NCBI RefSeq assembly: GCF_001427665.1
Contig: NZ_LMHC01000024.1
Span: 160,970 to 224,969 of the forward strand
From: Caulobacter sp. Root655
GTDB taxonomy: Bacteria > Pseudomonadota > Alphaproteobacteria > Caulobacterales > Caulobacteraceae
Reading direction: 5' to 3'
Length of the DNA stretch: 64,000 nt
In this document: positions 43,054 through 61,875 of the stretch, in pieces
How the letters are laid out: the number at the start of each line of letters is the position of its first letter
Position numbering within the stretch: position 1 is the stretch's first letter
The notes under the pieces: generated by a model
Told to the model about the DNA's origin: nothing
What the model saw: the letters and a program-made list of their open reading frames with translations, nothing else
The model's database searches: none
Translations under genes and position numbers: made by a program

Positions 43054-43106
43054 CGGTACCCCCATGGGATTTCGGTTGGGTGGCGTATGGAGGCGCGCTG
43101 CGACAT

Positions 43107-45609: not shown

Positions 45610-46803
45610 TCAGTTGGAGGATCGGAAGCGACCGCGGGCCAGCAGCCTGTCGGCCAGCCAGCGCCGGGCGGGCTCGTCGTAGAGTTTGAGGCAGGCATAG
45701 GCGATCGCGACAGCGGCCACGAACACGCCGGCCCCCACCAGGGCGCCCCGCGCCGGGGGAACCTTCTTGTCCACCACCCAGCCGGTGTAGATGTAGATCA
45801 GGGGATAGTGGGTGATGTAGAGCGGATAGGACAGGTCGCCGAAGAAGCGGGCGATCCGCACCGAGGGGCCGCTCGCGTCCTTCTCGCCGGCCCCGATCAT
45901 GACGATCAGCGGAAACAGCACGATCACGCAGGCCGCTTCGTAGAGGCCATTGGCCCACAGCCGCTCCGTTCCGCCAAACCGCGGGAGCGCCAGCGCCGCG
46001 ACCAGCAGCAGGCTGCAGACCGCGAAGGCGCCGCCGACCTTGACCCGCTTGCCCAGCCGCATGAGCAGCACCCCAGCGAAGAACGGGAAGAGCACGCGCG
46101 TCAGGCCGATGCGAATTCCACCGGCGTCGAGCGCCCACCCACCAATGACGTCGCCCCTGGGACCGAACACCAGCATGTGGATCAGCGCCAAGGCCGCCAG
46201 GGCCACCAGGACGCCCAGCGCCCGGTTCGACAGCTTCCGCAGGCCCACCGCGTAGAGGATGTTGGCGAGGTACTCGTAGAACAGCGACCAGGCCGGCCCA
46301 TTGAGCGGATAGATCTCGCCCCACCCGCGAATTTCCGCCGATGGCGTCAGCGGGACCATCAGGCAGCCGAGCAGCATCACCGCCACCACCTGCCAGGCCG
46401 AAACGGCCTCCAGCTTGGGGAAGATCGAGAAGTGCTGGAAGGCGACCAGGGCCGCGCCGATCAGACTGCCCATGATGATCATCGGCTGGAGCCGGACCAG
46501 ACGGCGCTTGTAGAACGCCCATTGGCTCATCCCCGCCGCCCAGCGCTCGTCATAGGCATAGGCGATCACGAAGCCCGACAGCAGGAAGAAGAAGTCCACC
46601 GCGAGGTAGCCGTGATTGACGATCTGCTTTTGTGGATTGCCTCCGGCATAGGCCTCGAAGAGATGGAAGATGACCACCATCAGGGACGCCACGCCGCGCA
46701 AGCCATCGAGGATGACATAGTGGCCCTTCGCCGGCGCGGTGGCGTCTGTCGACGTCGCCGCGGCCGATCCGGGCATGGCGAGCGCCCCAGTTTGCTCAGT
46801 CAT
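45610..46803 (-). CDS. Acyltransferase 3 family membrane protein
   Basis: This 397-residue protein has about 10 membrane helices. The AT3 start pattern is YVILDGLRGVASLMVVIFHLFEAY with the conserved Arg and His, followed by FFLLSGFVIAYAYDERW and RLVRLQPMIIMGSLIG. It probably O-acylates a carbohydrate at the inner membrane. The ATG at 46803 is preceded by GAGGATAC. It lies inside the glycoside hydrolase cluster, which suggests it modifies a cell-surface or imported sugar, but the substrate is unknown. Confidence 0.87.
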   Translation of the reverse strand: MTEQTGALAMPGSAAATSTDATAPAKGHYVILDGLRGVASLMVVIFHLFEAYAGGNPQKQIVNHGYLAVDFFFLLSGFVIAYAYDERWAAGMSQWAFYKRRLVRLQPMIIMGSLIGAALVAFQHFSIFPKLEAVSAWQVVAVMLLGCLMVPLTPSAEIRGWGEIYPLNGPAWSLFYEYLANILYAVGLRKLSNRALGVLVALAALALIHMLVFGPRGDVIGGWALDAGGIRIGLTRVLFPFFAGVLLMRLGKRVKVGGAFAVCSLLLVAALALPRFGGTERLWANGLYEAACVIVLFPLIVMIGAGEKDASGPSVRIARFFGDLSYPLYITHYPLIYIYTGWVVDKKVPPARGALVGAGVFVAAVAIAYACLKLYDEPARRWLADRLLARGRFRSSN

Positions 46804-46846
46804 GTATCCTCGCAAAGTCGTGTGGATCGCACCGCGCGTTCCAACC

Positions 46847-48727
46847 CTAGTGAACGGGTTTGATGGTGATCGCGGCCCCGCCGCCCACGCTCATGGGAAT
46901 GTGAAGAACGTCGCGGTTCGAGATCGACTTGACGACATGTTCGACGTCATTGGCCCCAGCGCCGTCTTGCCAGATCTCGGCCTTGAACTTCCCTCCCCCC
47001 AGAAAGCCGAGCGGTATGGCGACGGTGCGTGACTCCTCGTTCGTCATGGCGCCGACGTACCAGGTCTGACCCTTGCGCCGCGCCACCACGACGTGGCTTT
47101 CCGGCGATCCATCGATGAACCGCGTCTCGTCCCAGGCGGTCGGAACATCCTTGAGAAACTCGAAGCCCGGCGCGTTCGCATAGGCCGCGGGGTCGTCGGA
47201 GATCATCTGCAGCGGGCTGTCGAACACCACGTACTGGGCCAGGGCCTGGCCGCGCGTCGTGCGGGTCATCGGCATGACTTCCCGGGCGACATAGGTCTGC
47301 GGCGTGCTGTTGCGGAAACCGCCCGGGGTATAGTCCATGGGGCCCAGCAGCATGCGGGTATAGGCGAGCTTGACGTTGTGCCCGGGCGTGACCTGTCCCC
47401 AGGCGAACTTGTTGTATTCCAGCCCCAGCACGCCTTCCTGGGTGATGTAGTTGGGATAGGTGCGCGCCAGCCCGGCCGGAGGGAAGGCGCCGTGCATGTC
47501 CAGGAGCAGATGGCGCTTGGCGGTTTCCTGGGCCAGGCGGACATAGAACTGGACCATCTCCTGGTCGTCCCGTTCCATGAAGTCGACCTTGACGCCCTTG
47601 ATCCCCCAACGCTGATAGGTGTCGAGCACCGCCTCCATCCGGGGTTCGACATGCTTCCAGTGCGCCCACAGGATGAGCCCGACGCCCTTTGAGTCCGCGT
47701 ATTTCACCAGGGCCGGCATATCGATCACCGGATTGCTCTGGGTGATGTCGGTCTTCGGGTCCGCGTCGCAGCACGGAGTGGCGTTGAGGGGCCATCCTGC
47801 GTCGATGAGAAAATAGGGAAAGCCGGACTCGGCCGCGAAATCGATGAAGCGGCGGAAACGCTCCATGGTCGGCTTCTCGCCGGCCGTCGGTCCAGACCAC
47901 CAGTCCCAGGCCACCTTGCCGGGCTTGACCCAGGAATAGTCGCCCTCGGCCTGGGCGGAGAGATTTCCGATCAGGTGGGATTGGATGAGATCGCCGGCGC
48001 GGTCGGCCATCATGACCGCGCGCCAGGCGCTGGTCAGGCCGGCGGCGGATCTGACGGCGACATCCTTGCGGTCGGGTAGCGGCGTCACCCTGACCTTCAG
48101 CCCGCCGTCGACCGGGGACAGGCTCGATCCCGCATAGGCCTCTATCCCCGACTGCACGATCGCATAGTGGGTGCGGCCGGAGGCGGACGAACAGACCACC
48201 GGAACGTCATAGAGCTTGGCGCCGTCCAGTTCGGAGATCTTCTTCAGGGCCCATGAATTCTCATGAGAGCTCGAATATTCGGTGACTTCGCAGGCGGGGT
48301 CGTTCGGAAAGCGGTACGCCGTCTTTTCCCCCTTGAGCACCACCGGCGCGTCCTTGGGCAACAGATAGCGAAACGCGACTCCGTCGTTGGAGGCCCGTGC
48401 TTCCACCGAAAGCGTCCGATGGGCGCCGGTCTTTTCACGGAAGGTGACGATCGCCCCATTGTGCCAGTCTCGCGCCGCGCTGGCCTTTGTCGCCGTCAAG
48501 GCAAGGTCGCGCTTCTGACTTTGCTTTTGAATATCGACGACCTCCAGATCCGAGAAATCGGGTGCGTTCGCCAGCTCCAGGCCCATCGGAGAAGCGGACA
48601 CGATCGGTTCGCCCTCGCGATAGACCGAGTAGCTCGCCCCGTCGGCCGCGATCCTGATCTCCGCCTTCTTGTCGGGCGAGGCCACGACGATTTGGGACAC
48701 GGCCAGCGCCATCATGATGTTGAACAA
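46847..48727 (-). CDS. Glycoside hydrolase family 97
   Basis: This 626-residue enzyme has a short signal-like N-terminus and an N-terminal beta-sandwich. The (beta/alpha)8 barrel has WDWWSGPTAGEKPTMERFRRF, YFLIDAGW, WGIKGVKVDFMERDDQEMV and YPNYITQEGVLGLEYNKFAWG. The Asp in VKVDFM matches the nucleophile of the retaining GH97 branch (alpha-galactosidase type) rather than the inverting alpha-glucosidase branch. The TTG start at 48727 is preceded by AAGGGA at about 8 bases; an ATG four codons on is possible. Confidence 0.88.
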   Translation of the reverse strand: MFNIMMALAVSQIVVASPDKKAEIRIAADGASYSVYREGEPIVSASPMGLELANAPDFSDLEVVDIQKQSQKRDLALTATKASAARDWHNGAIVTFREKTGAHRTLSVEARASNDGVAFRYLLPKDAPVVLKGEKTAYRFPNDPACEVTEYSSSHENSWALKKISELDGAKLYDVPVVCSSASGRTHYAIVQSGIEAYAGSSLSPVDGGLKVRVTPLPDRKDVAVRSAAGLTSAWRAVMMADRAGDLIQSHLIGNLSAQAEGDYSWVKPGKVAWDWWSGPTAGEKPTMERFRRFIDFAAESGFPYFLIDAGWPLNATPCCDADPKTDITQSNPVIDMPALVKYADSKGVGLILWAHWKHVEPRMEAVLDTYQRWGIKGVKVDFMERDDQEMVQFYVRLAQETAKRHLLLDMHGAFPPAGLARTYPNYITQEGVLGLEYNKFAWGQVTPGHNVKLAYTRMLLGPMDYTPGGFRNSTPQTYVAREVMPMTRTTRGQALAQYVVFDSPLQMISDDPAAYANAPGFEFLKDVPTAWDETRFIDGSPESHVVVARRKGQTWYVGAMTNEESRTVAIPLGFLGGGKFKAEIWQDGAGANDVEHVVKSISNRDVLHIPMSVGGGAAITIKPVH

Positions 48728-48798
48728 CGGAAGATTCCCTTGGAGTGAGATTCAGAGGGCGCGAAGACGATGGCTGCGGTTACCCACCGCCAATGGCC

Positions 48799-50373
48799 TC
48801 AGGCGAAGCTGATCTTGAAAACGCTGGCGTGGCGGGTCGGCGCGCGCGCCGGGACCTCGATCGACAGCGCGCCGGCGCCCTGGCGGAACTTGAGCGGCCC
48901 GCGACGGCCCAGCATCTCGACCCGCGCCACGCGCCGACGCTCATGGGGATTGCCCGCGGCGAGCGCGGCGATCTCGGTGGAGCCCGACGGTTCTCCGAGC
49001 GCGATCGCATAGAGCGTGTCGCCCTTGGTCGTGAAGCGAATGTCCCGAGCGGTATAGGCCGCGCTCTCCTGGAACGCCCCGGCCGCGGCTTCGGTCGGCC
49101 CTTCGCCGAACACCTTCCACGGCCGTGTTCCGTGAATGGCTTCGGCGTTCGCCGCCATCCATGGCGCCAGCTCCTCCAGGAGCAGTTGCGACTCGGGCGG
49201 CAGGCTGCCGTCCGGATACAGCACGACGTTCAGCAGCAGGTTGCCGTTCTTGCTGACGATGTCGGCCAGCATGGCGATGACTTCCGACGTGGTCTTGTAC
49301 TTGTAGCCGTCGCTGTAGAACCAATCGCCGTTGGAGGTGTCGGTCTGCCACGGCAGCGGATTGATGCCGTTCAGGACCCCGCGCTCGACATCCTGGACCG
49401 CCCATTCCTTGTGGAATTCGCCGGAGCCCAGATCCTTGCAATTGTAGACGGCCTCGAGCTTGCCGCCGCGCGCGATGCTGCTGTTGTACATGTGCGCGAC
49501 CAGGCTTCGCCCGACCACGCCGAACGGCAGCCCTCCGTCCGAGTACAGAAGGTCCGGCTCGTAGGTGTCAAGCAGGTCGCGCATGCGGTCGAACCAGATC
49601 TGATGGAACCGCGGATCCTTGGTGTACCAGGTGTCGGGGGCGACGCGATAAGGCTCGTTGTGCGGCGGATGGTAGAGGTCGGCGTACTTGGGGTCCGCGC
49701 CGTCATAGGCCACGCCGTTTTCGGGCCAGGCCTGGTTATAGAGATGGCTGGGATGCCACCAGTTGTGGCTGGCGCCCAGGTGCTCCGATACGCCGAAACG
49801 CAGCTTGCGCTTGCGTGCAGCCGCCTTCCAGGCGCCGACGATGTCGCGCTTGGGGCCCATGGCCACCGCGTTCCAGCGATGATGCTTGGAGTTCCACAGG
49901 TCGAAATTGTCGTGATGCACGCCCATGCTGACGAAGTACTTGGCGCCGGCGGCGGCGTACTGGTCCATGAGGACCTCGGGATCGAACTTCTCCGCCGTCC
50001 ACAAGGGAATGATGTCCTTGTAGCCGACCTTGGAAGGCTGGCCGTAGGTCTTCAGGTGGTGGTCGTAGTGCGGGTGGCCCGGAACGTACATCTGCCGGGC
50101 GTACCAGTCGCCCTGGCGCGGCACGGCCTGCGGGCCCCAATGGGCCCAGATCCCGAACTTGGCGTCGCGGAACCAGTCGGGGGCCTGGTAGGTCTTCAGG
50201 GACTCGGGCTCCTGGCGGAACGGGCCCTTGGCCATGGGCAGCCGATAGTCCGGCGCCGGCAGCTTGGCGCAGGCGTCCGCGGACGGCTCCTGCCTCGCCT
50301 GGGCGGCTCCCGCCAGGCCCAGCGCCGCGAGGGCTGGGACACCCAGGAAATGCCGCTTGTTCAACGTCACCAT
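48799..50373 (-). CDS. Alpha-L-fucosidase, GH29
   Basis: This 524-residue exported enzyme has APDWFRDAKFGIWAHWGPQAVP, the GH29 opening, YFVSMGVHHDNFDLWNSKHHRWNA, and the nucleophile Asp in EPDLLYSDGGLPFG. The C-terminal part (about 430-524) forms a beta-sandwich. The ATG at 50373 is chosen over the TTG two codons upstream. It probably removes fucose from the tip of fucosylated xyloglucan side chains, given the neighbouring alpha-xylosidase and beta-galactosidase genes. Confidence 0.9.
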   Translation of the reverse strand: MVTLNKRHFLGVPALAALGLAGAAQARQEPSADACAKLPAPDYRLPMAKGPFRQEPESLKTYQAPDWFRDAKFGIWAHWGPQAVPRQGDWYARQMYVPGHPHYDHHLKTYGQPSKVGYKDIIPLWTAEKFDPEVLMDQYAAAGAKYFVSMGVHHDNFDLWNSKHHRWNAVAMGPKRDIVGAWKAAARKRKLRFGVSEHLGASHNWWHPSHLYNQAWPENGVAYDGADPKYADLYHPPHNEPYRVAPDTWYTKDPRFHQIWFDRMRDLLDTYEPDLLYSDGGLPFGVVGRSLVAHMYNSSIARGGKLEAVYNCKDLGSGEFHKEWAVQDVERGVLNGINPLPWQTDTSNGDWFYSDGYKYKTTSEVIAMLADIVSKNGNLLLNVVLYPDGSLPPESQLLLEELAPWMAANAEAIHGTRPWKVFGEGPTEAAAGAFQESAAYTARDIRFTTKGDTLYAIALGEPSGSTEIAALAAGNPHERRRVARVEMLGRRGPLKFRQGAGALSIEVPARAPTRHASVFKISFA

Positions 50374-50451
50374 GCTCAACTCCCAAATTTCTTTGAATAT
50401 TCCTGTTGGACCGCGACCTACGGATCGCGAACCCGACGACCAAGATGTCCG

Positions 50452-51504
50452 CTATTTTCCGACGGAATGAAGTACGCGCCCAAAGAACGGCAGAACGTTA
50501 TTCTGGAAACGACTGGCGACGGCGCTGCCGTGGTCCCCACTGTAAATTTCGAAAGTGTTCTCCACGCCAGAGGCGTCCATGCGTTCGTGCAATTCGGCCG
50601 CGTCGACCTTCAGCCCGTCCTGGTCGCCCACATCCATGGCGATCGCCTGATATCGCCGCAGATTGAAGACGTACTGGTCGAGCATGCTCAGGGGCGCGTT
50701 GGCGGCCCATCGCGCCAGCACCGACCGGTCGACGACGCCGTTCGACGTCGGCAGATCGACATAGAACGGCGGCTTCTTCGGGTTCGGCGACCAGGCGGCG
50801 GCGACGGCGAAGGTCGCGCGCGGCAGGAAGCCGAGCTTGGTCGCCTCTTCCCGGGTTTTGACGGCTTCAACACTCGCGGCGGCTTCTGGCGGCGGAACCT
50901 CGCGGGCCGAAAGGCAGCATGGGCTCATGATGTAGAGCGCGCCAAACGTCTCGGGGTGCTTCATGCCGATGCGCGCGACGCCGTAGCCGCCCATGGAGTG
51001 ACCGGCGAGGCCGCGGCTCAGGCGGTCCGGAAGGGTGCGGTAATGGGTATCGACGTAGCTGACCAGGTCGCGGGTGATGAACCCTTCCCAGTCGCCGATC
51101 GTCACTGAACTCGAGTACATGGAGCCGTTGTGCAGGGTCTGGGTGTCCGGCAAGACGACGATCACGTCGGGCGCGCCCGACGCGAAGGCGGCCTCGACGG
51201 TTCGCGGGGTCTGGAGCAATCCCGCGAACGCGTCGGCGGTCATGCCATATCCATGCAGCGCGTAGACGACCGGATAGCGGCGCGACGGGTTGGCGGCATA
51301 GCCGGGTGGGAGATAGACCACGACATCCCGATCAGCCGACTCGCCTTCGAGATTGCCCTCCAAGGCCGCGCCGTGGACCTTGATACGGTCGACGGTCACG
51401 GATTTGGCGCTCGCCGCGGGAGGCGACGGCGAGGCCGCCCGCAAGTCCGTGCTCGACGCCGCCAATAGAATGGCCATCGCTATGGAAGCCCAACCGGTTT
51501 TCAC
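50452..51504 (-). CDS. Alpha/beta hydrolase, esterase D/feruloyl-esterase type
   Basis: This exported protein (350 residues from the GTG at 51504, signal ending DLRAA) has YPVVYALHGYGMTADAFAG, the nucleophile elbow GLAGHSMGGYGVARIG, and late Asp and His residues (in DVGDQDGLKVD and YSGDHG) to complete a triad. Related CE1-like esterases remove acetyl or feruloyl groups from plant polysaccharides. A GTG at 51525 is possible, but the AAGGGGA spacing favours 51504. Deacetylation of xyloglucan or xylan is inferred from context. Confidence 0.83.
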   Translation of the reverse strand: MKTGWASIAMAILLAASSTDLRAASPSPPAASAKSVTVDRIKVHGAALEGNLEGESADRDVVVYLPPGYAANPSRRYPVVYALHGYGMTADAFAGLLQTPRTVEAAFASGAPDVIVVLPDTQTLHNGSMYSSSVTIGDWEGFITRDLVSYVDTHYRTLPDRLSRGLAGHSMGGYGVARIGMKHPETFGALYIMSPCCLSAREVPPPEAAASVEAVKTREEATKLGFLPRATFAVAAAWSPNPKKPPFYVDLPTSNGVVDRSVLARWAANAPLSMLDQYVFNLRRYQAIAMDVGDQDGLKVDAAELHERMDASGVENTFEIYSGDHGSAVASRFQNNVLPFFGRVLHSVGK

Positions 51505-51595
51505 GTGCGTCCCCTTTCCCTTCACGGGTGGAAGCCTGAAATTGCCCCCCCGTTTCCTGCTCTCGCGCGCCCCGTTCCGGAGGCTTGGCCGACGA

Positions 51596-53272
51596 TCAGT
51601 TCGGGTTGCCCACCGGAATAATCGCCGCGCCCTGGGCCGCTCCGAACTTGATCCGCAGGACCTGCTGGCGATCGACCAGATTGAGGCCGTTGTCGGTCTG
51701 GTCGCCGTTCCAGACCCGCCGGAAGATCCATTTTCCGTTCTCGAACCGGCCCTCCTCGACGCGGAGCATCTGGCCGCTTTCGGGCTTGGACGGCTCGAAC
51801 TTCACGCGGGTGTTGAAACCGGTCAGCAGGTAGTCGCCCGGACCAAGCTCGGCGACCGCCGCGCCGCCCACGGGCTGGGGATTGCCGGTCGGCTTGTCCG
51901 TTCCGAACTGCCATTGGCCGAAGGTGGCGACGGCGCGATAGGGACCGAGCTCCATCACCTGGGTGTGGTTGGCCTTGGGGTCGGTCGGCTCGGAGACGCC
52001 CCAGGTCTTGCCCGCGAACGCCAGGGCCGCCCACTCGCGCGCCATGGGCTCGAACAGGGTGTAATTCCGGGCGAACAGCTTGGCCTTGGACTCGTCGAAG
52101 TCCTTGGCCCCGAGCGGGTAGTTGTAATAGCCGGTGTCGTCCATGCCGAACGGCGAGAACCCGATCGCGCCCTTGCCGATGGTCGCGAAGAAATAGCGGG
52201 CGAACTCGGTGTCGTTGCCGGTTTCGGGCACGAAGAGCGCGTTGTCGGGCCTGGAGTAGTAGTCCAGATAGGCCAGGTACGCCGCGTGGTCGCGGACATA
52301 GATGTCCGGCGCGACCAGGTCGATCGACGGCGCGGCGGCCTTGTAGACGTCGATCACGTGATGCACCGGCCCGCCGCTGGCGTAGGTCGGGGCCGGCTGC
52401 CGGCCGAAGGCCGAAGCCAGGGCCGCGTTCATGTACATCGGCAGCGGCTTGACCGCCTTGCCAGCCTTGGCGATCTCCTCGACATAGGCGGCGAACGACC
52501 AGGCATTGAAATATTCGTCCGCGTCGGCCCCGAACACGGCCTTCCAGCTTCCCGGCGATTTGCCCAGGCGCTTGAGCAGGGCGGCGGGAACTGGTCCGTC
52601 GAACAGCTTCTGGGCCGCGGGCGAGAAGTCCCGGACGCTGCCGTAGGAGCCGACCTCGTTTTCCGGCTGGATCATGATGATCGTGTTCTGCGGGTCGATC
52701 TGGCGGATGTGCTCCATCAGCTTGACGAAGGCGCGCTTGTCGGCCTCCAGCGTGGTCCGGCTATGCGGCGACAGCACATAGTGGGGCTGGCCGCTGGCGG
52801 TGATCATCCGCGGGAAGCGCTTGCCGTCGAGCTTGACCCATTCCGGCGTGTAGCTGGGCCCAGTGTTCTTCCAGGTGCCGAACCACAACAGCACCAGCCG
52901 CACCTTGTTGGCGCGGGCCTGCTCCACCAGCGTGTCCACGAACGAGAAGTCGAACCGACCCTCGACGGGCTCGATCTGCTCCCAGGCGACCGGGACCTCG
53001 ACGGTGTTGGCGTGGATGCGCTTGATCGTGGGCCAGACCTCCGGCAGCACGTCCGGATAGTTGCTGCTGTTGTTGACCTGGGCGCCCAGCATCAGGAACG
53101 GCGCGCCGTCGACGAACAGGGCGTGGCGGCCGTCGCGGGTCACGATGCGCGGAACCGGGTTGGTCGGCTGCGCCTCGGCCGCCGCCACCGCTCCGCCGGC
53201 GAAAGCCAGGACGAGGGCCGCCAGGCTGCTCACGAAACGCGGCGACCGGCCGCCACGGATCGAAGTCCACAT
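51596..53272 (-). CDS. Beta-galactosidase-like GH35 protein with DUF5597 domain
   Basis: This 558-residue exported protein (signal about 1-34, from ATG 53272) has a TIM barrel with FLMLGAQVNNSSNYPDVLPEVW, VEVPVAWEQIEP and LVLLWFGTWKN. The acid/base motif is IIMIQPENEVGSYG and the nucleophile is in ALFVPETGND. The C-terminal beta domain is of the DUF5597 type (YRAVATFGQWQF..., NGKWIFRRVWNGDQTDNG). Enzymes of this shape include xyloglucan-specific beta-galactosidases. A start at ATG 53365, overlapping the GH2 stop as ATGA, is possible but would place 31 odd residues before the signal peptide. Confidence 0.85.
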   Translation of the reverse strand: MWTSIRGGRSPRFVSSLAALVLAFAGGAVAAAEAQPTNPVPRIVTRDGRHALFVDGAPFLMLGAQVNNSSNYPDVLPEVWPTIKRIHANTVEVPVAWEQIEPVEGRFDFSFVDTLVEQARANKVRLVLLWFGTWKNTGPSYTPEWVKLDGKRFPRMITASGQPHYVLSPHSRTTLEADKRAFVKLMEHIRQIDPQNTIIMIQPENEVGSYGSVRDFSPAAQKLFDGPVPAALLKRLGKSPGSWKAVFGADADEYFNAWSFAAYVEEIAKAGKAVKPLPMYMNAALASAFGRQPAPTYASGGPVHHVIDVYKAAAPSIDLVAPDIYVRDHAAYLAYLDYYSRPDNALFVPETGNDTEFARYFFATIGKGAIGFSPFGMDDTGYYNYPLGAKDFDESKAKLFARNYTLFEPMAREWAALAFAGKTWGVSEPTDPKANHTQVMELGPYRAVATFGQWQFGTDKPTGNPQPVGGAAVAELGPGDYLLTGFNTRVKFEPSKPESGQMLRVEEGRFENGKWIFRRVWNGDQTDNGLNLVDRQQVLRIKFGAAQGAAIIPVGNPN

Positions 53273-53361
53273 GCGCGGAAAAACTCCATGAGCCCGCCCG
53301 AATGGCGAGGTCGACGTGTTGGATGAGGATCTGGCGAGGCTTCCCTGTCGTTCGGTCGCGT

Positions 53362-56268
53362 TCATTCGCGTTCCCCGACGATCACGGATGCGCTCATTCC
53401 GAACGGTTCGCCGGGCGCGACGGTCATCAGCACCGCCACGGTCCGCTCGCCCTCCTTGGCCGGCAGCGGTGCGGTCAGGGCTCCAGGCGCGGTGTCCGTC
53501 TTGGCCGCGACCTTGACGCCGTCGACATAGATCTCGGCGGGCCCCGTCAGGCGGCTGAACAGGAGCTTTCCGCCAGCCCGCCGCACTGTCGCGCGCGGCG
53601 TGAAGATCGCGCGATAGAGCGCGAACCCGCCCTCGGGAACGGCGTCCTGCAGCAATCCAGGCCTCGCCCAGGTCCAGGAATTCATGTCGTTGTCGGCCGG
53701 CTTGGTCAACGGGTCGGGACGAACGCGCGCCACCGGCGATACGCGCCAATCGGACAGGATCGAGATAGGCGGGGTCCGCGGCGCCGCCGGCAGCGTTCCG
53801 GAATGGACGGACAGCTGGGTTTGCGCCGCTCGCAGCCCCGGCGCCGACGCTTTCAGGCGCAGGACGCCGCTGGACCCGCGCTCGCTCTGCACGATCACCT
53901 GGGCCAGGCCGTTGAACAGGCTGCGCGCATTGCCCTTTTCCGGTTCATGGCAATTGGGGTCGCCGTTGCCCAGGCCGATGATCCGCCCGTTGTCGATCTC
54001 GAAGGTCACCGCCAGGTTGGCCGTGGGGACGGCCCGTCCGGCCTTGTCCAGGGCCTCGACGGTGATCGGCGCGGCGTCGCCGCCGTCGCCGGTCAGGACG
54101 GTTCGATCCGGCGTCAGGCGCAAGGCGACCGGCGGACCGGCGGTCTCGACGATCGCCTTCGACACCGGCTGGCCGCCGACATAGCCGATCGCCTCCAGGC
54201 GCCCGGGCGCATAGGGCACGGTCCAGGACGGCATGACGAAGGGATCGACCGCCTGACGCGAGACCAGCTTGCCATTAAGGCGCAGTTCCACCGCCTCGGC
54301 GTTGGTCAGCGCCATCACCTTGATCGGCTGGCCCTCCTTGCCTGGCCAGGTCCAGTGCGGAGCCAGGTCCAGCAGAGGGCGGTCCTTGATCCACTGCGCC
54401 CGGTGCAGGAAGAACGCCATCTTCGGGAAGCCGCACAGGTCCATGGCCCCGAAGAACGAGCTGGCCGAGGGCCATTCGAGCGGCGTCGGTTCGCCGCGAT
54501 AGTCGAAGCCCGACCACAGAAAGGCGCCCGCCACGAACGGACGCTTGGCGATCGCCTCCCAGCCCTTGCGATGGGTGGTTCCCCAGGACGACGGCTCCTC
54601 GTCGTTCTCGGCCAGGATGTTGCGCGAGCGGTCGGTGAACCATTCGCCCCGGGTCATGAACGCGGAGGTGTCCTCCGAACTCATCATCGGCAACTGCGGA
54701 TGCTCGGCGTGGAACCGGTCGTAGTTGTCGGACTGGTAGTTGAAGCCGACCACGTCGACGGCCTGCGAGACATTGATCGGGTTGAACATCCCGTCGTTCA
54801 TCGCGGCGGTGACCGGGCGGCTGTCGTCCAGGCGCTTGACGGCCGCCACCATCCGCCGAACCATCTGATAGCCCGCCTCGGTGCCCTGCATGGGCTCCTC
54901 GTTGAACACCGACCACAGGAAGACGCTGGGGTGGTTGCGGTCGCGGCGGATCAGCCATTCCAGCTGCCGCATGTAGTCGGGGCTGGGATTGAAGTTGCGG
55001 TTCTCGTCGAGGATCAGGACGCCCAGCCGATCGGCCGCCTCCAGCATCTCCGGGGCCGGGGCGTTGTGGGCGCAGCGGACGGCGTTGGCGCCCATCGCCT
55101 TGACCCGGCGCAACCGGAAATCCCACAGGCTGTCGGGCACGGCCACGCCGACCCCGGCATGGTCCTGGTGCAGGCACACGCCGTGGATCTTCAAGGCGCG
55201 GTCGTTGAGGAAGAACCCCTGGGCGGCGTCGAACCGCAGCGTGCGGAAGCCGGTCGAGGTGATCGCCTCGTCGACCACTTTGCCAGCCTGCAAGACGCGG
55301 GTGCGCACGGTGTAGAGGGCCGGATCGTCGACCGACCATAGGCGCGGCGCGGCGACGTCCAGCACGAGGCGGGCCTCGGCCTGGTCCAGCGATGGGGCCT
55401 CGGCGGCCACGCGCCCCGCGCCCACCACCTTGCCCCAGGGATCGATCAGCTGGGCCTCGACCTCGACCGCCTCGGCTTTGGGGCCGATATTGCCCAGGGT
55501 GGCGACCACCGGCAGGGTCCAGCGCCCCGCTCCGTCTCGTCGCGGATCGGCGTGGACGCCGTCGTCGACGATGTGCACGGCGGCGCGCTTGGTCAGCCAG
55601 ACGTGGCGATAGATGCCACCGCCCTCGTACCACCATCCCTCCATCGGATCGGCGTCGACGCGCACGGCGATGCTGTTGAGCTCGTCGCCGTAGCGGGCGA
55701 ACGGGGTCAGGTCGATCTGCAGGGCGTTGTAGCCGCTCCAGTTGTGCGCCACGACACTGCCATTGAACCAGACCGTCGCATGGGTGGCGATGGCCCCGAA
55801 CGCGATGGAGATGTGCTTGCCGCGATCGGCGGGATCCAACCGCAGGGCGCGGCGATACCAGGCCTTGCCGCGCGGGCGATAGCCTTGGGCGAGGTTCTCG
55901 TCCTTGTCGAACGGCCCCTCGACCACCCAGTCATGCGGCAAGTCCAGTTCGCGCCAGTCGCTATCGTCGTACTCGGGCGAGGCCGCGCCCCCGGCGTTGC
56001 CGGCCTTGGCGTTGGCATAGGACCAGCCATGGCCCCTGATTTTCGGAAACGGCACGTCGCCAAGATGGAAGCGCCAGCCCTGATCCAGCGACACCCGCTC
56101 GCCCGGCGCCTTGAGCTCAGGCCTGGGGTAGAACCGCTCGGGTCGGGCGGCGAGGTCCGCGTCCGCCCAGGCCAAGCCGGGCGCGCCGCCGGCGCCGACC
56201 AGCGCGACAGCGGAACTCGTCCATAGGAAGCGGCGGCGGTCCAAGTTCATACCGCTGATCTCATTCAT
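53362..56268 (-). CDS. Glycoside hydrolase family 2 (beta-galactosidase-like)
   Basis: This 968-residue enzyme has a Tat-type signal (LDRRRFLWTSSAVALVG) and the GH2 sandwich domain with DLPHDWVVEGPF, KAWYRRALRLD and WWYEGGGIYRHVWL. The catalytic barrel has the acid/base Glu in FLWSVFNEEPM and the nucleophile Glu in MMSSEDTSAFM. Extra Ig-like C-terminal domains (DUF4982-like) follow. It probably cleaves terminal beta-galactose. The ATG at 56268 follows GAGGTGA. It sits between GH31 and GH35 genes in the operon. Confidence 0.88.
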   Translation of the reverse strand: MNEISGMNLDRRRFLWTSSAVALVGAGGAPGLAWADADLAARPERFYPRPELKAPGERVSLDQGWRFHLGDVPFPKIRGHGWSYANAKAGNAGGAASPEYDDSDWRELDLPHDWVVEGPFDKDENLAQGYRPRGKAWYRRALRLDPADRGKHISIAFGAIATHATVWFNGSVVAHNWSGYNALQIDLTPFARYGDELNSIAVRVDADPMEGWWYEGGGIYRHVWLTKRAAVHIVDDGVHADPRRDGAGRWTLPVVATLGNIGPKAEAVEVEAQLIDPWGKVVGAGRVAAEAPSLDQAEARLVLDVAAPRLWSVDDPALYTVRTRVLQAGKVVDEAITSTGFRTLRFDAAQGFFLNDRALKIHGVCLHQDHAGVGVAVPDSLWDFRLRRVKAMGANAVRCAHNAPAPEMLEAADRLGVLILDENRNFNPSPDYMRQLEWLIRRDRNHPSVFLWSVFNEEPMQGTEAGYQMVRRMVAAVKRLDDSRPVTAAMNDGMFNPINVSQAVDVVGFNYQSDNYDRFHAEHPQLPMMSSEDTSAFMTRGEWFTDRSRNILAENDEEPSSWGTTHRKGWEAIAKRPFVAGAFLWSGFDYRGEPTPLEWPSASSFFGAMDLCGFPKMAFFLHRAQWIKDRPLLDLAPHWTWPGKEGQPIKVMALTNAEAVELRLNGKLVSRQAVDPFVMPSWTVPYAPGRLEAIGYVGGQPVSKAIVETAGPPVALRLTPDRTVLTGDGGDAAPITVEALDKAGRAVPTANLAVTFEIDNGRIIGLGNGDPNCHEPEKGNARSLFNGLAQVIVQSERGSSGVLRLKASAPGLRAAQTQLSVHSGTLPAAPRTPPISILSDWRVSPVARVRPDPLTKPADNDMNSWTWARPGLLQDAVPEGGFALYRAIFTPRATVRRAGGKLLFSRLTGPAEIYVDGVKVAAKTDTAPGALTAPLPAKEGERTVAVLMTVAPGEPFGMSASVIVGERE

Positions 56269-56378
56269 TCTGCTCACCTCAATTGCCCGGCGCGCCGTTC
56301 GGCCGAAGGGCGTCGCGCATGGCGGCGGCCCGCCTCTTGCCGTGCTTGCTCATGCCGACGTTCGCGCGCGCGCCCTCC

Positions 56379-58727
56379 CTAGCGCGAGACAACCTGCACC
56401 GCCGCCAACGCCTGGGCGGCCATCGCCTTGTCGCCGGAGGCTGTCAGCTTGCCGGCCTTGTCGTCCCAACGCAGCTTCACGACCTTGCTGACGCCCTTCT
56501 CGTAGGCGTTGGTCACCCCGTCGTCGTCATAGAGCGTGAATTCGGCGTCGCGGCCCGGATAGACCTTCACGGCGCTGATCGCCTGCGGCGTGGCCGTATT
56601 GAGGATCGGCGCGCCCATCGGGATGATCGAGCCGGCGCGGACGAACAACGGGATGGTGTCGATCGGCGCATGGACGCCGATCGTCTGGCCGCCGGTGAAC
56701 TTCTTGCCCGTCCAGTAGTCGTACCAGTCGGCGCCGGCCGGCAGGTAGACGTCGCGGCTCTCCACGCCCTGGTCGGTGATCGGCGCCACCAGGAAGGCCG
56801 GGCCGAACATGTACTGGTCGCCCAGGGTGGCCACCTTGGGATCGTTGGGGAAGTCCATGAACAGCCCGCGCATGAACGGCGCGCCGGTCTCGTAGGTCGT
56901 ATGCCCCATGGAATAGAGGTAGGGCATCAGGGCGTAGCGCAGCTTCAGGTACTTGGCGACCACGCCCTCGGCCCCCTTGCCCAGGGTCCAGACCTCGGTG
57001 TCCTTGCGCATGCCATGCACCCGCAGGGTCGGGGTGAAGGTTCCGTACTGGAACCAGCGGGCGAACAGCTCGGGATAGTCGTTGTTCTGGCCGACCACGG
57101 CGCGGGCGTCGGACGGATCCAGCAGCGGCGGCTTGGTCGCCGTCGTGGTCTGCGGCAGCCACTGCCAGCCGCCGATGTCGTTGCCCCAATAGGCCAGGCC
57201 CGAGGCGGTGAAGTTCAGGCCGGTCGGCACCTGGCGCTTGAGGGCTTCCCAGGTCGGCTGGATGTCGGACGACCAGAACAGCGCGCCGTTGCGCTGGGCG
57301 CCGATATAGGCGGCCCGGGCCAGGATCAGGTTGCGCTTGTCGGGCCGGTCGCGGCGCGAGCCCTCGGCCACGCCCTGGGTGTGCACCAACGGGAACAGGT
57401 TGTGATAGCGGTCGCCCGAGCCGATCGAGAAGAAATAGCCGTCCGGAACCAGGTCTGGCTCGGTCTCGTCCAGCCAGAACCAGTCGAAGCCCTTGGAGGC
57501 GATGTTGTCGCGGATCTTGCCCCAGAACCACTCGCGGGCCTGAGGATTGGTGCTGTCGATCAGCGCCCCGGCGCGGTCGCTGCGGAACGCGAGGCCGTCC
57601 GCCGGCTTGCCGTCGGCGTCCTTCAGCAGCCAACCCTTGTCGGCCAGGAAATTGAAGTAGCGGCCTTCCTTCTCGTAGCGCGGCCAGACGCTGATGATGC
57701 TGGAGACGCCCGCGTCATGCAGGGTCTTGTTCATGGCCGACGGGTCCGGGAAGGCGACCGGATCGATGTCCATCTGGCCCATCCGGGTCCAGTGGAACCA
57801 GTCCAGCACCATGATGTCGAGCGGATAGCCGCGGTCGCGATAGCCCTTGGCGACGTCGAGGATCTGCGCCTGCGTCTCGTAGCGGGCCTTGCTCTGGATG
57901 TAGCCGAAGGCGGCCTTGGGCGGCAGCGGCGTCACGCCGGTCAGCTTGCGGTAGCCGGCGTAGATCTCGTCATAGCTGCCGCCGGTGATCACGAAGAACG
58001 ACACTCGCTCGCCGACCTTCGACTGCCACAGGGTGCGGCCGTTGACGGCCGGATAGACCTTGGTGTCGGACGGATTGTCCCACAGGATTCCGTAGCCCTT
58101 GTTCGAGACCATGAACGGCACGCAGACCGTCTCGCCGTGCGGGGCGTCGTAGTCGTGCTTGCAGTCGATCTCCCGGCCGCGCAGGTCGAGTATCCCCTCT
58201 TGGTTCTGGCCCAGGCCGTAGAAGTGTTCGTCGACGGTCGTCGAGAAGCTGGCCCCGGCTCTATAGGTCCGCTCGCCGTTGACCACGTGCGGCGACATCT
58301 CCCAGCCGTTCATCGCCACCAGATCCGAACCATCCGCTTTGCGCACCTTCACCGACACCGGCGGCAAGGCCGGGGCGAAATAGCGATCCATCTGGGAAGG
58401 CGGACCCGGCCAGGGCTGGGCGACCACTTCCAGCGACAGGGCGCCGGAGGTGAAGACGTCGGCCCCGCTCTTCTGGTCATGGCGCCAGCCCTTGGCGTCG
58501 CTGGCTCCCGTGAAGCCGTAGCCGGGAGCCGCGGCGGCCAGGTCCTTGTCCTGGCTGATGGTCACCCGGACGATGTTGGGGGCGTAGGTCTCGACCGAGA
58601 CGTAGGAGCCGTTGCGGTCCATTACCGCCAAGGGCTCGGCCATCGCCGCGCCGGCGGCGAGACTCAAGGCCAGGGCCGAGACCAGTCCAGCCGTCGAACG
58701 TCGCGTGCTCTTGTTCCGTTGATGCAT
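56379..58727 (-). CDS. Glycoside hydrolase family 31, alpha-xylosidase-like
   Basis: This 782-residue exported enzyme (signal about 1-31) has an N-terminal sandwich and a GH31 barrel. Motifs are FGYIQSKARYETQAQIL, LDIMVLDWFHWTRMGQMDID, the nucleophile Asp in DWFWLDETEPDL and YWGNDIGGWQW, where the Asp of WGNDIGG is the acid/base position. The WLD.TEPD form matches alpha-xylosidases active on xyloglucan oligosaccharides. The start is the ATG at 58727, preceded by GGGGAGGAAGAC. It is the first intact gene of the minus-strand cluster. Confidence 0.9.
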   Translation of the reverse strand: MHQRNKSTRRSTAGLVSALALSLAAGAAMAEPLAVMDRNGSYVSVETYAPNIVRVTISQDKDLAAAAPGYGFTGASDAKGWRHDQKSGADVFTSGALSLEVVAQPWPGPPSQMDRYFAPALPPVSVKVRKADGSDLVAMNGWEMSPHVVNGERTYRAGASFSTTVDEHFYGLGQNQEGILDLRGREIDCKHDYDAPHGETVCVPFMVSNKGYGILWDNPSDTKVYPAVNGRTLWQSKVGERVSFFVITGGSYDEIYAGYRKLTGVTPLPPKAAFGYIQSKARYETQAQILDVAKGYRDRGYPLDIMVLDWFHWTRMGQMDIDPVAFPDPSAMNKTLHDAGVSSIISVWPRYEKEGRYFNFLADKGWLLKDADGKPADGLAFRSDRAGALIDSTNPQAREWFWGKIRDNIASKGFDWFWLDETEPDLVPDGYFFSIGSGDRYHNLFPLVHTQGVAEGSRRDRPDKRNLILARAAYIGAQRNGALFWSSDIQPTWEALKRQVPTGLNFTASGLAYWGNDIGGWQWLPQTTTATKPPLLDPSDARAVVGQNNDYPELFARWFQYGTFTPTLRVHGMRKDTEVWTLGKGAEGVVAKYLKLRYALMPYLYSMGHTTYETGAPFMRGLFMDFPNDPKVATLGDQYMFGPAFLVAPITDQGVESRDVYLPAGADWYDYWTGKKFTGGQTIGVHAPIDTIPLFVRAGSIIPMGAPILNTATPQAISAVKVYPGRDAEFTLYDDDGVTNAYEKGVSKVVKLRWDDKAGKLTASGDKAMAAQALAAVQVVSR

Positions 58728-58888: not shown

Positions 58889-59266
58889 TCAGCAGGCCGC
58901 CTGGGCCGTGGCGGGCGCGGCCGCCAGGCCTTCCAGGAACTGGGCATGGAGCGGCATGGCTTGAGCGGTTTTGCCGATCATGTCGCGCACATGCCGCACG
59001 AACCGCCGCGCCTCATAACTCGATATGCCGTACGTCCAACCCATCTCCGGCCTTGCCGACATAGTCGCGCAGGACACGCTCGGCCGCGCCGAGGTCGGTG
59101 TGATCGGAAAGACGCCCACGCCCGCCCCGAGAATACCAATCTCGGCGGACTCGGCCAACGAGATCTCGATGCCGCCGGGAGACTGCGCGCCCAGGGTTCG
59201 GGCCAGGTAAGCGGCCGCCAGCCAGCCGGCCGTTCCGCCGCCAACGATCAGTATTCGCTTACTCAA
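58889..59266 (-). pseudogene. Tryptophan-halogenase-like gene with internal deletion
   Basis: The frame opens from a TTG preceded by GGAGGAGGCTC and reads MSKRILIVGGGTAGWLAAAY, the FAD motif of flavin-dependent (tryptophan) halogenases. After about 60 residues the frame leaves the family pattern, and later shows FVRHVRDMIGKTAQAMPLHA, which looks like the C-terminal end. The total is 125 residues against about 500 for the family. The WxWxIP motif and the catalytic Lys region are missing, so it cannot be active. It looks like an internal deletion that kept both ends. It lies between the TonB remnant and the GH31 gene. Confidence 0.72.
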
Positions 59267-59280
59267 GAGCCTCCTCCGGA

Positions 59281-59327
59281 AAGAAAAAAGTCGCCCCTCG
59301 GCCGGGGAAAAACTGGCCGAAGGGCGA
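59281..59327 (-). terminator. Intrinsic terminator after TonB remnant
   Basis: On the minus strand a stem TCGCCCTTCGGCC/GGCCGAGGGGCGA (59291-59326, one mismatch) is followed by CTTTTTTCTT. It lies about 15 bases after the TonB remnant's stop and upstream of the halogenase remnant. Confidence 0.75.
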
Positions 59328-59341
59328 AGGGGGAGGAAAAA

Positions 59342-59482
59342 TTAGAAAGACAGCCGAAGGCTGGCGCTCACGCGACGGTCGGCGATGAACCCGCTGCGGA
59401 TGTACTTGCGGTCGTCGAGGTAGCCGCCCATCGAGGCGCCCTGCAACAACATCGCCCGTAGAACGCTCTGCCTCCGAAGCAT
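59342..59482 (-). pseudogene. TonB-dependent receptor reduced to its two ends
   Basis: The 46-residue frame starts at an ATG with a strong GGGAGGGACAAA. It reads MLRRQSVLRAMLLQGA, like the beginning of a signal peptide, and then directly SMGGYLDDRKYIRSGFIADR and a final barrel strand ending RLSF. This is the N-terminal and C-terminal end of a TonB receptor joined in frame, with the plug and almost the whole barrel (about 800 residues or more) gone. The own ribosome site and terminator remain. Confidence 0.68.
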
Positions 59483-60183
59483 TTTGTCCCTCCCATCGGC
59501 GCGCCTGGGTCCTGGCGCTCTGAAGGCGCCGACTGGACCATGTTGACCACCGCCAGATGGCAGCGTTGTCATTGCCCTATGGACCTATCCCATTACCGGA
59601 AATTGGCAAGTCAATTCCTCAGACAAATAGAATTCATTTTTGACGGATGCCTCAACGGCACAATGACACCGGTGGCATTCTGGCGCCGAGGCGGCACCGG
59701 TAGAATCTGACGCCATAGACGGACTATCCTATCCATCTAATTAGATTTACTAGATAATTTCCAAAATGTAGCTCTCTATATCCTGTCACCTTCGACGCCA
59801 ATCGTTCACGATGGCGGCGACCTTTTCAACGAGTCCTGGTCGGACAATACGGCGCCCTATCGGCCAGAACTCCGCACTCGCTTCGGTACGTACTAGGCGA
59901 CGCGTTGGACGCGACCTCGCCCCTCCATGAAGCGGCGGGGCGCCGTGCGCTATCGAATTCCACGCAGCGCCAGTCGGTCGAATTTGATCCGCAGCTTAAC
60001 GGCATATCCCGCACCGCTCATGCGCAAAAGGCCGTTCCCAAGGGAGGGCAGATCGACGGCGCGACGGCGCCGGCTCCCGAGGCGAGCTCACAATTGTCAC
60101 ACAATTACACTCGTGCCTCCCGTGATCCGTGCTAGGCAACGACCAACGGCGCGACGCACGGCGTCGGTCAGGGGAGTGAACCC
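59483..60183. other. Divergent promoter region of the hemicellulose locus
   Basis: No gene is seen. The region includes an AT-rich part (59580-59790) unusual for this genome, a near-perfect palindrome at 59662-59679, a perfect 12-bp palindrome ATCTAATTAGAT at 59735-59746, and ACAATTGT near 60090. It probably carries promoters for both the minus-strand operon and the GH39 gene. Confidence 0.55.
59662..59679. promoter_or_regulatory. LacI-type operator-like palindrome
   Basis: AATGACACCGGTGGCATT is an 18-bp palindrome centred on CCGG with one mismatched pair. The TGNCACCGGTGNCA form resembles operators of LacI-family sugar repressors in alphaproteobacteria. It lies 180 bp upstream of the TonB remnant's start. 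A second half-site GGCACCGGT follows at about 59692. No LacI gene is in the window. Confidence 0.5.
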
Positions 60184-61875
60184 ATGCGAAACCGCGCTGG
60201 TGTCGGCTTGCTGGCCGCCCTGTTGTCCGTGGGTGCGCCGGCGCTCGCCCAGACACCCGCCGCCGTTCCCGTCTCGATCACCGTCGATGCCGCCAAGCCC
60301 CTTGAGGAACTTCGGCCGATTTGGCGGTTCTTTGGAGCCGACGAGCCGAACTACGCAACCATGAAGGACGGCCGCAAACTGCTTGGTCATCTGGGCGCGC
60401 TCAAGCCCAAGGCCGTCTACTTCCGAGCGCATAACCTGCTCAACACCGGAGACGGCGCCCCCGCTCTGAAATGGGGCAGCACCAACGTCTACACCGAGGA
60501 CGCCAACGGACGACCGGTCTACGACTGGACGATCCTGGACAGGCTGTTCGATACCTACCTAGCCAACGGCGTCCGGCCCTACGTCCAGATCGGCTTCATG
60601 CCGCAAGCGCTCTCGAGCCATCCCGAGCCCTACCAACACGCCTGGCGGCCGGGCTTCGACTACAACCTGATCAGCGGCGGATGGGGCTATCCGCCCAAGG
60701 ACTACGACAAGTGGTCAGAATTGGCCTACCAGTGGGTGCGCCATTGCGTCGAGCGCTACGGCCGTGCCGAGGTCGAGACCTGGTACTTCGAGGTCTGGAA
60801 CGAACCCAATGGCCCCGCCTATTGGAAAGGCACGCCTGAGGAATTTTACAAGCTGCACGACTACGCCATCGCCGGGGTGCGACGCGCCCTGCCGACGGCT
60901 CGCGTGGGCGGGCCCGATGTCGCCGGCAGCGGCGGCCAGTTCATGGAGGACTTCCTCACCCACGTGACTGATGGGACCAACTACGTCACCGGCCAAAAAG
61001 GCACGCCGACCGACTTCCTGGCCTTCCACGCCAAGGGCGCGCCGCGCTTCGTCGATGGCCACATCCAGATGGGGATCGCCACACAACTGGCCGGCATCGA
61101 CAAGGGTTTTGCAATGATCGCGGCGCGGCCGCCCTTGAAGGCCAAGCCGATCGTGATCGGCGAATCCGACCCAGAGGGGTGCGCCGCCTGCCAAGGACCC
61201 AGTTTCAGCTATCGGAACGGCACGGTCTATTCCAGCTACACGGCCGCCAGCTTCGCTCGCAAGTATGACCTGGCGGCCCGGCGCGGCGTCACGCTGGACG
61301 GCGCCCTGACCTGGGCCTTCGAGTTTGAGGACCAGCCCTATTTCGCGGGCTTCCGCCAACTGTCCAGCAATGGCCTCGACCTGGCGGTGGTCAACGTGTT
61401 CAGAATGTTCAGCCTTATGGGGCCACAGCGGATCGAGGCCGTCAGTTCGGGGCAAATCCCGCTCGACGAAATCCTCAGCAAAGGCGTCCGCGGACGACCC
61501 GATATCGGAGCCCTGGCCAGCTTGGGATCCGATCGACTGGCGATCCTGGTCTGGAACTACCACGACGATGACGTGCCTGGCCCTGCCGCCGACATTAGCC
61601 TGGACCTCAGAAACCTGCCGCGGGCTTTCGCCGGCGCCAAGCTGACCCACTACCGGGTGGACGAGGATCACGGCAATGTCTACGGCGCATGGCGGCGGAT
61701 GGGCTCGCCACCGGCCCCAACCAAGGCCCAGTACGACACCTTGGAGCAGGCCAGCGGCTTGGCCGTGCTCGACGGTCCACTGCCGGCTCGGACCAAGTCC
61801 GGGCTAACCCTGACCTTCCAACTGCCGCGACAGGGTGTATCCCTGCTGGTGCTGGAGACGACCAGGCCGCGATAG
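60184..61875 (+). CDS. Glycoside hydrolase family 39, beta-xylosidase-like
   Basis: This 563-residue exported enzyme (signal about 1-22, ALAQ) has a TIM barrel with IWRFFGADEPNYATMKDG, VYFRAHNLLNTGDGAP, the acid/base Glu in YFEVWNEPNGPAYW and the nucleophile Glu in KPIVIGESDPEGC, followed by a beta-sandwich. The motifs match GH39 beta-xylosidases. It begins the plus-strand part of the hemicellulose locus and is followed 127 bp on by a GH2 gene. The ATG at 60184 opens the signal peptide. Confidence 0.9.
   Translation: MRNRAGVGLLAALLSVGAPALAQTPAAVPVSITVDAAKPLEELRPIWRFFGADEPNYATMKDGRKLLGHLGALKPKAVYFRAHNLLNTGDGAPALKWGSTNVYTEDANGRPVYDWTILDRLFDTYLANGVRPYVQIGFMPQALSSHPEPYQHAWRPGFDYNLISGGWGYPPKDYDKWSELAYQWVRHCVERYGRAEVETWYFEVWNEPNGPAYWKGTPEEFYKLHDYAIAGVRRALPTARVGGPDVAGSGGQFMEDFLTHVTDGTNYVTGQKGTPTDFLAFHAKGAPRFVDGHIQMGIATQLAGIDKGFAMIAARPPLKAKPIVIGESDPEGCAACQGPSFSYRNGTVYSSYTAASFARKYDLAARRGVTLDGALTWAFEFEDQPYFAGFRQLSSNGLDLAVVNVFRMFSLMGPQRIEAVSSGQIPLDEILSKGVRGRPDIGALASLGSDRLAILVWNYHDDDVPGPAADISLDLRNLPRAFAGAKLTHYRVDEDHGNVYGAWRRMGSPPAPTKAQYDTLEQASGLAVLDGPLPARTKSGLTLTFQLPRQGVSLLVLETTRPR

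Follow-up and report, generated by a model that had tools for sequence, protein, structure and literature searches.

The 64,000-nucleotide stretch of Caulobacter DNA analysed here, referred to as the window, contains at positions 58889-59482 (minus strand) the residue of three genes, namely a TonB receptor gene, halogenase 1 and halogenase 2, as recognised by comparison with locus L067 of Caulobacter sp. AP07. The stretch would be the decayed head of a polysaccharide-utilisation (plant-sugar) operon, and recurrent, ordinary deletional decay of a displaced uptake module ahead of a still-selected hydrolase operon is very likely the explanation of its structure. The evidence comes from the intact parent block in AP07, three deletion junctions in the window, deletions exclusive to individual relatives, a conserved promoter and the loss of codon constraint in the related genome G007.

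Two short open reading frames (ORFs) are found in the stretch. The 46-aa ORF (59342-59482, minus strand), a TonB-dependent receptor remnant with an ATG start after GGGAGGG, consists of the 5' end and the 3' end of the receptor gene joined in frame, both pieces being in their native frame. A Pfam search of this ORF (45 residues given) returned no match, and neither a plug nor a beta-barrel was detected. The 125-aa ORF (58889-59266, minus strand) has a TTG start after GGAGGAGG and is a chimeric halogenase remnant. It passes from the halogenase-1 start in frame, through a scrap of the halogenase-1 middle out of frame, to the halogenase-2 end, where it terminates in the native frame and at the native stop of halogenase 2. 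Pfam Trp_halogenase matched this ORF at profile positions 1-49 of 458 only, rather than over the full-length domain. An earlier note, made from the letters of the window, had described two genes that each kept both ends and lost the middle. Both ORFs exist as it had reported, and the receptor ORF is indeed made of the two ends in frame, but the halogenase ORF combines parts of two genes and is not one shortened gene.

The intact block and the three deletions

The intact block was found in Caulobacter sp. AP07 (G021, contig C17), where L067 contains the TonB receptor, halogenase 1 and halogenase 2 in this order (986, 520 and 524 aa). The receptor has plug and barrel domains, and the halogenases, which are 37% identical to each other, match Trp_halogenase at positions 1-446 and 1-457 of 458. 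The AP07 contig ends 64 bases past halogenase 2, before any glycoside hydrolase (GH) gene, and GH2 and GH35 are on another contig; we infer their linkage to the block.

The roughly 600 bases of the window can be classed as gene remnants, since an intact homologue exists in L067 and the window retains only four pieces collinear with it. Piece 1 (59629-59432; L067 5862-6061) is 78% identical, piece 2 (59436-59101; L067 8877-9214) 84%, piece 3 (59108-59005; L067 9919-10020) 89% and piece 4 (59014-58905; L067 12026-12135) 84%; pieces and junctions alike are on the minus strand. At junction 1 (59432-59436), an overlap of two L067 matches, about 2.8 kb is gone inside the receptor gene. At junction 2 (59101-59108), about 0.7 kb is gone inside halogenase 1 and the frame is shifted. 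Junction 3 (59005-59014) removes about 2.0 kb, from the halogenase-1 middle to the halogenase-2 end, and halogenase 2 is entered in its native frame. The earlier description of two adjacent genes with two in-frame deletions is thus replaced by three genes and three deletions; the frame is shifted at junction 2 and restored at junction 3.

The BLAST pieces overlap by 5, 8 and 10 bases at junctions 1, 2 and 3. The earlier note had proposed mapping the junctions for short direct repeats. With AP07 as a proxy, the exact repeats are 3, 4 and 3 bp long; repeats of at least 3 bp occur at 22% and of at least 4 bp at 7% of random junctions. Strong microhomology is not supported, the exact repeats being just modestly above chance, and deletion between short direct repeats is no more than a possible mechanism.

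Head states and codon constraint in the genus

A close GH2 orthologue (86-92% identical to that of the window) was found in at least eight of the 75 genus genomes, that is, in the window's own and at least seven further ones. Only AP07 among those eight has an intact head. The other seven, the window's included, have the same promoter with the head eroded or missing. BK020 retains the first 147 coding bases of the receptor, 70 more and the last bases; its halogenase 1 is intact (483 codons) and halogenase 2 is absent. G007 has the receptor in four scraps (one weak, E 0.03) and the halogenase in two. UNC279MFTsu5.1 (UNC279) has the promoter immediately ahead of GH31, and the only possible vestige of the head is a questionable match to the halogenase-2 end (E 0.14); the promoter and GH2 of this genome are on two contigs, both breaking inside GH31. 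Root343 has the promoter, the receptor ribosome site and first codons, and then GH2 in the same open frame. G023 and BIN4 have the promoter and then a GntR gene, the GntR match in G023 covering residues 138-281 only. The residue comparison with relatives covered matches with E up to 0.5, and rows of the locus comparison were retained at an identity of at least 45% or an E below 1e-60.

The pieces kept differ among the genomes. G007 keeps L067 6331-6437 in the receptor, which is missing in the window and BK020. BK020 keeps L067 6062-6157 and 6211-6280, both missing in the window and G007, and the window keeps L067 8877-8945, missing in G007 and BK020. Since each of the three keeps a stretch that the other two lack, there were at least three independent losses. 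In the GH2 tree, the window's genome (G000) groups with Root343, with ultrafast bootstrap values of 80 for protein and 95 for DNA, and BIN4 groups with G023. Given this grouping, an earlier window-like stage is conceivable for Root343, whose loss was not counted as independent. The other forks are open and, thus, the tree does not order the losses.

In six of the seven eroded genomes, the receptor and the halogenases were both lost and the hydrolases kept. BK020, where halogenase 1 has survived the receptor, speaks against the idea that either one strictly depends on the other. The alignment with relatives carrying the intact genes, which the earlier note had recommended, bears out its view that the receptor and FAD enzymes were lost while the promoter and the downstream glycoside hydrolases were kept, as the relatives reach the same outcome through other deletions.

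Differences from AP07 were counted by codon position. The window residues differ at 15, 15 and 49 of 170, 170 and 168 sites at the first, second and third positions, and the live GH2 gene has 50, 43 and 151 differences in 968 codons. The proportion of third-position bias is the same in both, at a higher rate in the residues (29% vs 16% at third positions). This third-position excess suggests that the window's proteins were under constraint until recently and that the loss is recent. The G007 residues differ evenly (18, 17 and 19 of 86, 84 and 83) and are unconstrained. The BK020 receptor is nearly even (16, 16 and 21 of 71, 72 and 73), and its intact halogenase 1 is constrained (41, 43 and 146 of about 481 each), suggesting that this receptor is long dead and the adjoining halogenase alive. 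Close relatives therefore present graded states at one promoter: intact, receptor dead with halogenase alive, all scraps and all gone. The series is a compact natural test of gene loss at the head of a live operon, and of whether translation and hairpins constrain its path.

With the first 11 candidates per genome scored, no other receptor more than 45% identical to that of AP07 at E <= 1e-100 was found in the genus. Intact paralogous blocks, with a TonB receptor, two halogenases and GH2 in a row, are present in UNC279 (L146, G088:C17) and BK020 (L147, G075:C18). Compared to AP07, their receptor is 42% identical, the halogenases about 61% and 59%, and GH2 about 45%. In Sphingomonas, related GH2-GH35 pairs lie directly behind a 32-33% identical TonB receptor in five of six loci (L153-L158, except L155); the best of overlapping matches was retained here and in the comparison of operon order. 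Those five loci contain no halogenase between the receptor and GH2-GH35, and in L157 a halogenase occurs only at the far 5' edge. Judging from these gene orders, Caulobacter may have gained the halogenases at a later stage.

Promoter, hairpin and downstream operon

In the ancestor, one promoter with two palindromic sites would have driven the TonB receptor, halogenase 1 and halogenase 2, and then the hydrolases. The upstream palindrome TGCCACCGGTGTCA (59664-59677, minus strand) is operator-like. Its core, ACCGGTGTC, is present in all nine aligned promoters that reach so far (the G012 row is too short), and the outer bases vary. The promoter core (ATTTGTCTGAGGAATT...CTTGCCAATTT; 59551-59629, minus strand) has the second palindrome, TGACAACGCTGCCA, at 59558-59571. 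ATTTGT and TGACARCGYTGCCA occur in 10/10 aligned promoters, which include one copy before the G007 GH35 gene and one before a second TonB receptor in the window's own genome (contig C12); ACCGGTGTC precedes both of these genes as well. Depending on the genome, the element precedes the receptor, GH31, GntR, GH2 or GH35. The promoter region, searched as DNA across the genus with 10 candidates scored in each genome, was recovered in 5 of the 75 genomes: the window's, AP07, G007, UNC279 and BK020. In Root343, G023 and BIN4 it took inspection of the DNA upstream of GH2 or GntR to reveal the promoter. A strict-pattern scan of the window's genome returned the window site alone, the copy before the C12 receptor deviating from the pattern.

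A terminator- or attenuator-like hairpin (59291-59327; 59284-59327 with its U-run, minus strand) lies between the receptor and halogenase residues. It is predicted to fold as a stable G+C-rich stem followed by the U-run (-27.4 kcal/mol, z -5.3), which bears out a terminator-like structure where the earlier note had described an intact terminator. The hairpin reaches z -5.0 in AP07 and -5.4 in G007 and is weakened in BK020. Its arms (2 x 11 bases) are identical at 22/22 positions between G007 and AP07, as counted by eye, compared to 199/253 for the G007 coding residues (Fisher p 0.007, a comparison chosen after looking). The hairpin is gone wherever the whole head is gone and, thus, is not indispensable. 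In BK020 (L068 8405-8490) the left arm is changed, and the predicted fold pairs the arm with the halogenase ribosome site GGAGGAGG in place of a terminator-like stem.

The first intact gene of the operon is GH31 (56379-58727, minus strand), which has Pfam GH31 domains and a start codon assigned by reading; 80-91% identical proteins were found in 10 of the 60 relatives searched. It probably starts at 58727, following GGGGAGGAAGAC. An ATG in frame with GH31 also overlaps the stop of the halogenase remnant, TGATG (58889), and opens an 836-aa ORF. Then follow, all on the minus strand, GH2 (53362-56277, assigned by Pfam), a GH35-like/DUF5597 gene (51596-53374, start approximate) and the remainder of the operon, with esterase, GH29 alpha-L-fucosidase, GH97 and acyltransferase genes (45610-51525). 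The order of these last four is the same in relatives where the contig reaches. Judging by GH29, GH31, GH2 and GH35, the substrate may be fucosylated xyloglucan or galactosides. The remnant mRNA is probably transcribed through into the hydrolases. The promoter and the start region of the receptor, joined in some lineages by the hairpin, would have been retained because the downstream glycoside hydrolases need that promoter.

Several further features of the neighbourhood were observed. A GntR/FCD regulator precedes GH2 in BK020, G007, UNC279 and BIN4, and the corresponding locus in the window (56277-56379) gave no match to it. The G007 operon is split (L069, L144/L247), with promoter, remnants, GntR and GH2 at one site and a second promoter copy directly before GH35, esterase, GH29, GH97 and acyltransferase at the other. 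The operon promoter and a divergent GH39 gene (60184-61875) have a common upstream region, and in AP07 the place of GH39 is taken by an IclR regulator. An intact 842-aa TonB receptor (40540-43065) is encoded on the same strand, past the distal end of the operon.

Causes of the loss and related systems

The uptake and halogenase module probably became dispensable when a second TonB receptor, under the same type of promoter, took over, and internal deletions would then have removed it piece by piece, on separate occasions in no fewer than three Caulobacter lineages. In the window's genome the second receptor (G000:C12:320386-323712) is followed by its own halogenase. It is 32% identical to the AP07 receptor, and its promoter region is 75% similar within the genome. 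At E <= 1e-150, with 10 candidates per genome scored and up to 63 in a further search, the second receptor was found in 5 of the 75 genus genomes (the window's, G007, BK020, UNC279 twice, and BIN4), all of them among the seven with an eroded head. AP07 has none at this threshold in up to 63 scored candidates. One copy in each of BIN4 and UNC279 lies beyond GH97 with a single IclR-family gene between. This distribution makes replacement by the second receptor plausible, with AP07, the only genome with an intact block, as the single intact case in the comparison. Root343 and G023 (85% complete) have eroded heads and no second receptor at E <= 1e-150, which argues against replacement as the sole reason. 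The 67 genomes that lack the GH2 orthologue also lack the second receptor (10 candidates per genome scored) and, thus, the link may be mere shared substrate.

Another possible explanation is selection against the surface receptor, such as escape from phages or bacteriocins using it. Repeated loss is seen across several lineages, and BK020 has a dead receptor beside an intact halogenase 1. The suggestion of such selection in the earlier note is right in that the receptor was lost and the operon kept, but the pattern is equally explained, and more simply, if a second receptor under the same type of promoter made this one redundant; we consider it distinctly unlikely that selection against the receptor drove the losses. 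Assembly collapse or a chimera, with full-length genes present and skipped by the assembler, had also been raised. The genome is a 5.2 Mb draft of 27 contigs, but the remnants are on a contig of 399 kb, and the best 40 of 426 candidates in the assembly included no second copy of L067 6100-12000 at more than 75% identity beyond the window pieces. The matches above 75% were the window's two pieces (84% and 89%) and three scraps of at most 82 bases at 78-79%. A halogenase search of the same genome gave 13 matches, the remnant and 12 further genes of nearly full length. Furthermore, residues with other breakpoints are present in BK020 and in G007, a two-contig assembly, and the window halogenase start has point changes (GVGEG in AP07 reads GAGVG here). 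Collapse is scarcely credible.

The mini-ORFs have good ribosome sites and open frames, and the earlier note had suggested that they may act as leader peptides. The receptor remnant ORFs are 46, 71 and about 86 codons long in the window, G007 and BK020, the halogenase remnant ORFs are 125 and 49 codons long in the window and G007, and the sequences differ in both sets, so that the conservation across relatives expected of a small protein or leader peptide is not seen. Since the G007 residues show no codon-position constraint either, and UNC279 and Root343 lack the mini-ORFs, a role for them as conserved, functional small proteins or as regulatory leader peptides is very improbable. A related proposal is that the frame was guarded: selection would pass deletions that let ribosomes reach a stop near the next gene and so shield the operon from premature Rho-dependent termination, which is unlikely, and the remnants would act as leader ORFs indifferent to sequence, which is equally doubtful. 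The native frame is kept at 5/6 receptor junctions (window 1/1, G007 3/3, BK020 1/2; about 0.018 at 1/3 each), and 4/5 remnants are open to a native or native-like stop (about 0.02). When phases were shifted, open combinations numbered 1/3 and 2/9 for the window receptor and halogenase, 6/27 and 3/9 for those of G007, and 2/9 for the BK020 receptor; in their actual state, both remnants of the window and of G007 are open and that of BK020 is not. The G007 halogenase ORF likely ends at the native halogenase-2 stop. G007 remains open despite its unconstrained codons, and the identity of its hairpin arms to those of AP07 fits the same proposal. However, the pattern is post hoc with few events, and without the weak G007 piece (E 0.03) the count is 4/5 (about 0.045). 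At the halogenase junctions the frame is lost in G007 and in the window, where junction 3 restores what junction 2 shifted. The receptor remnant of BK020 is out of frame at its end, even with an intact halogenase 1 behind it. The hairpin has weakened in that genome and is missing from those without the head. The frame pattern, being small and post hoc, is at most a weak hint of possible selection for continued translation. Erosion of the head under such a polarity filter, in which dead genes become translated spacers, indifferent to sequence, that jointly with the retained hairpin determine how strongly the hydrolase operon is expressed, is likewise rather improbable.

The pair of halogenases has a counterpart in Brevundimonas BAL3, also of the Caulobacterales, in which BrvH and its neighbour are adjacent halogenase genes, 42.7% identical, according to the article describing them (PMC5945002). 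AP07 likewise has two adjacent halogenases, 37% identical, whereas both are destroyed in the window. The word TonB is absent from the main text of that article (PMC5945002). Among the matches listed, no title or abstract gave a published description of the present locus.

In its present layout, the operon head resembles an attenuator. Transcription attenuators with a leader ORF have a short translatable ORF, a hairpin with a U-run and then the structural genes, and the same succession is found here. Unlike the leader of such a system, the window peptide is not conserved between relatives, and the arrangement arose by deletion in the receptor gene.

The recurrent deletional decay that we favour is an ordinary process, here unusually clear at an operon head and repeated within one genus. 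As in bacterial pseudogene decay by deletional bias, constraint would have been lost and internal deletions would then have left collinear scraps. The genus Caulobacter is presumably free-living. The window differs from the usual pseudogene in that its scraps head an operon whose other genes are seemingly intact, with promoter and hairpin kept, and in that this head has decayed in several Caulobacter species through different deletions.
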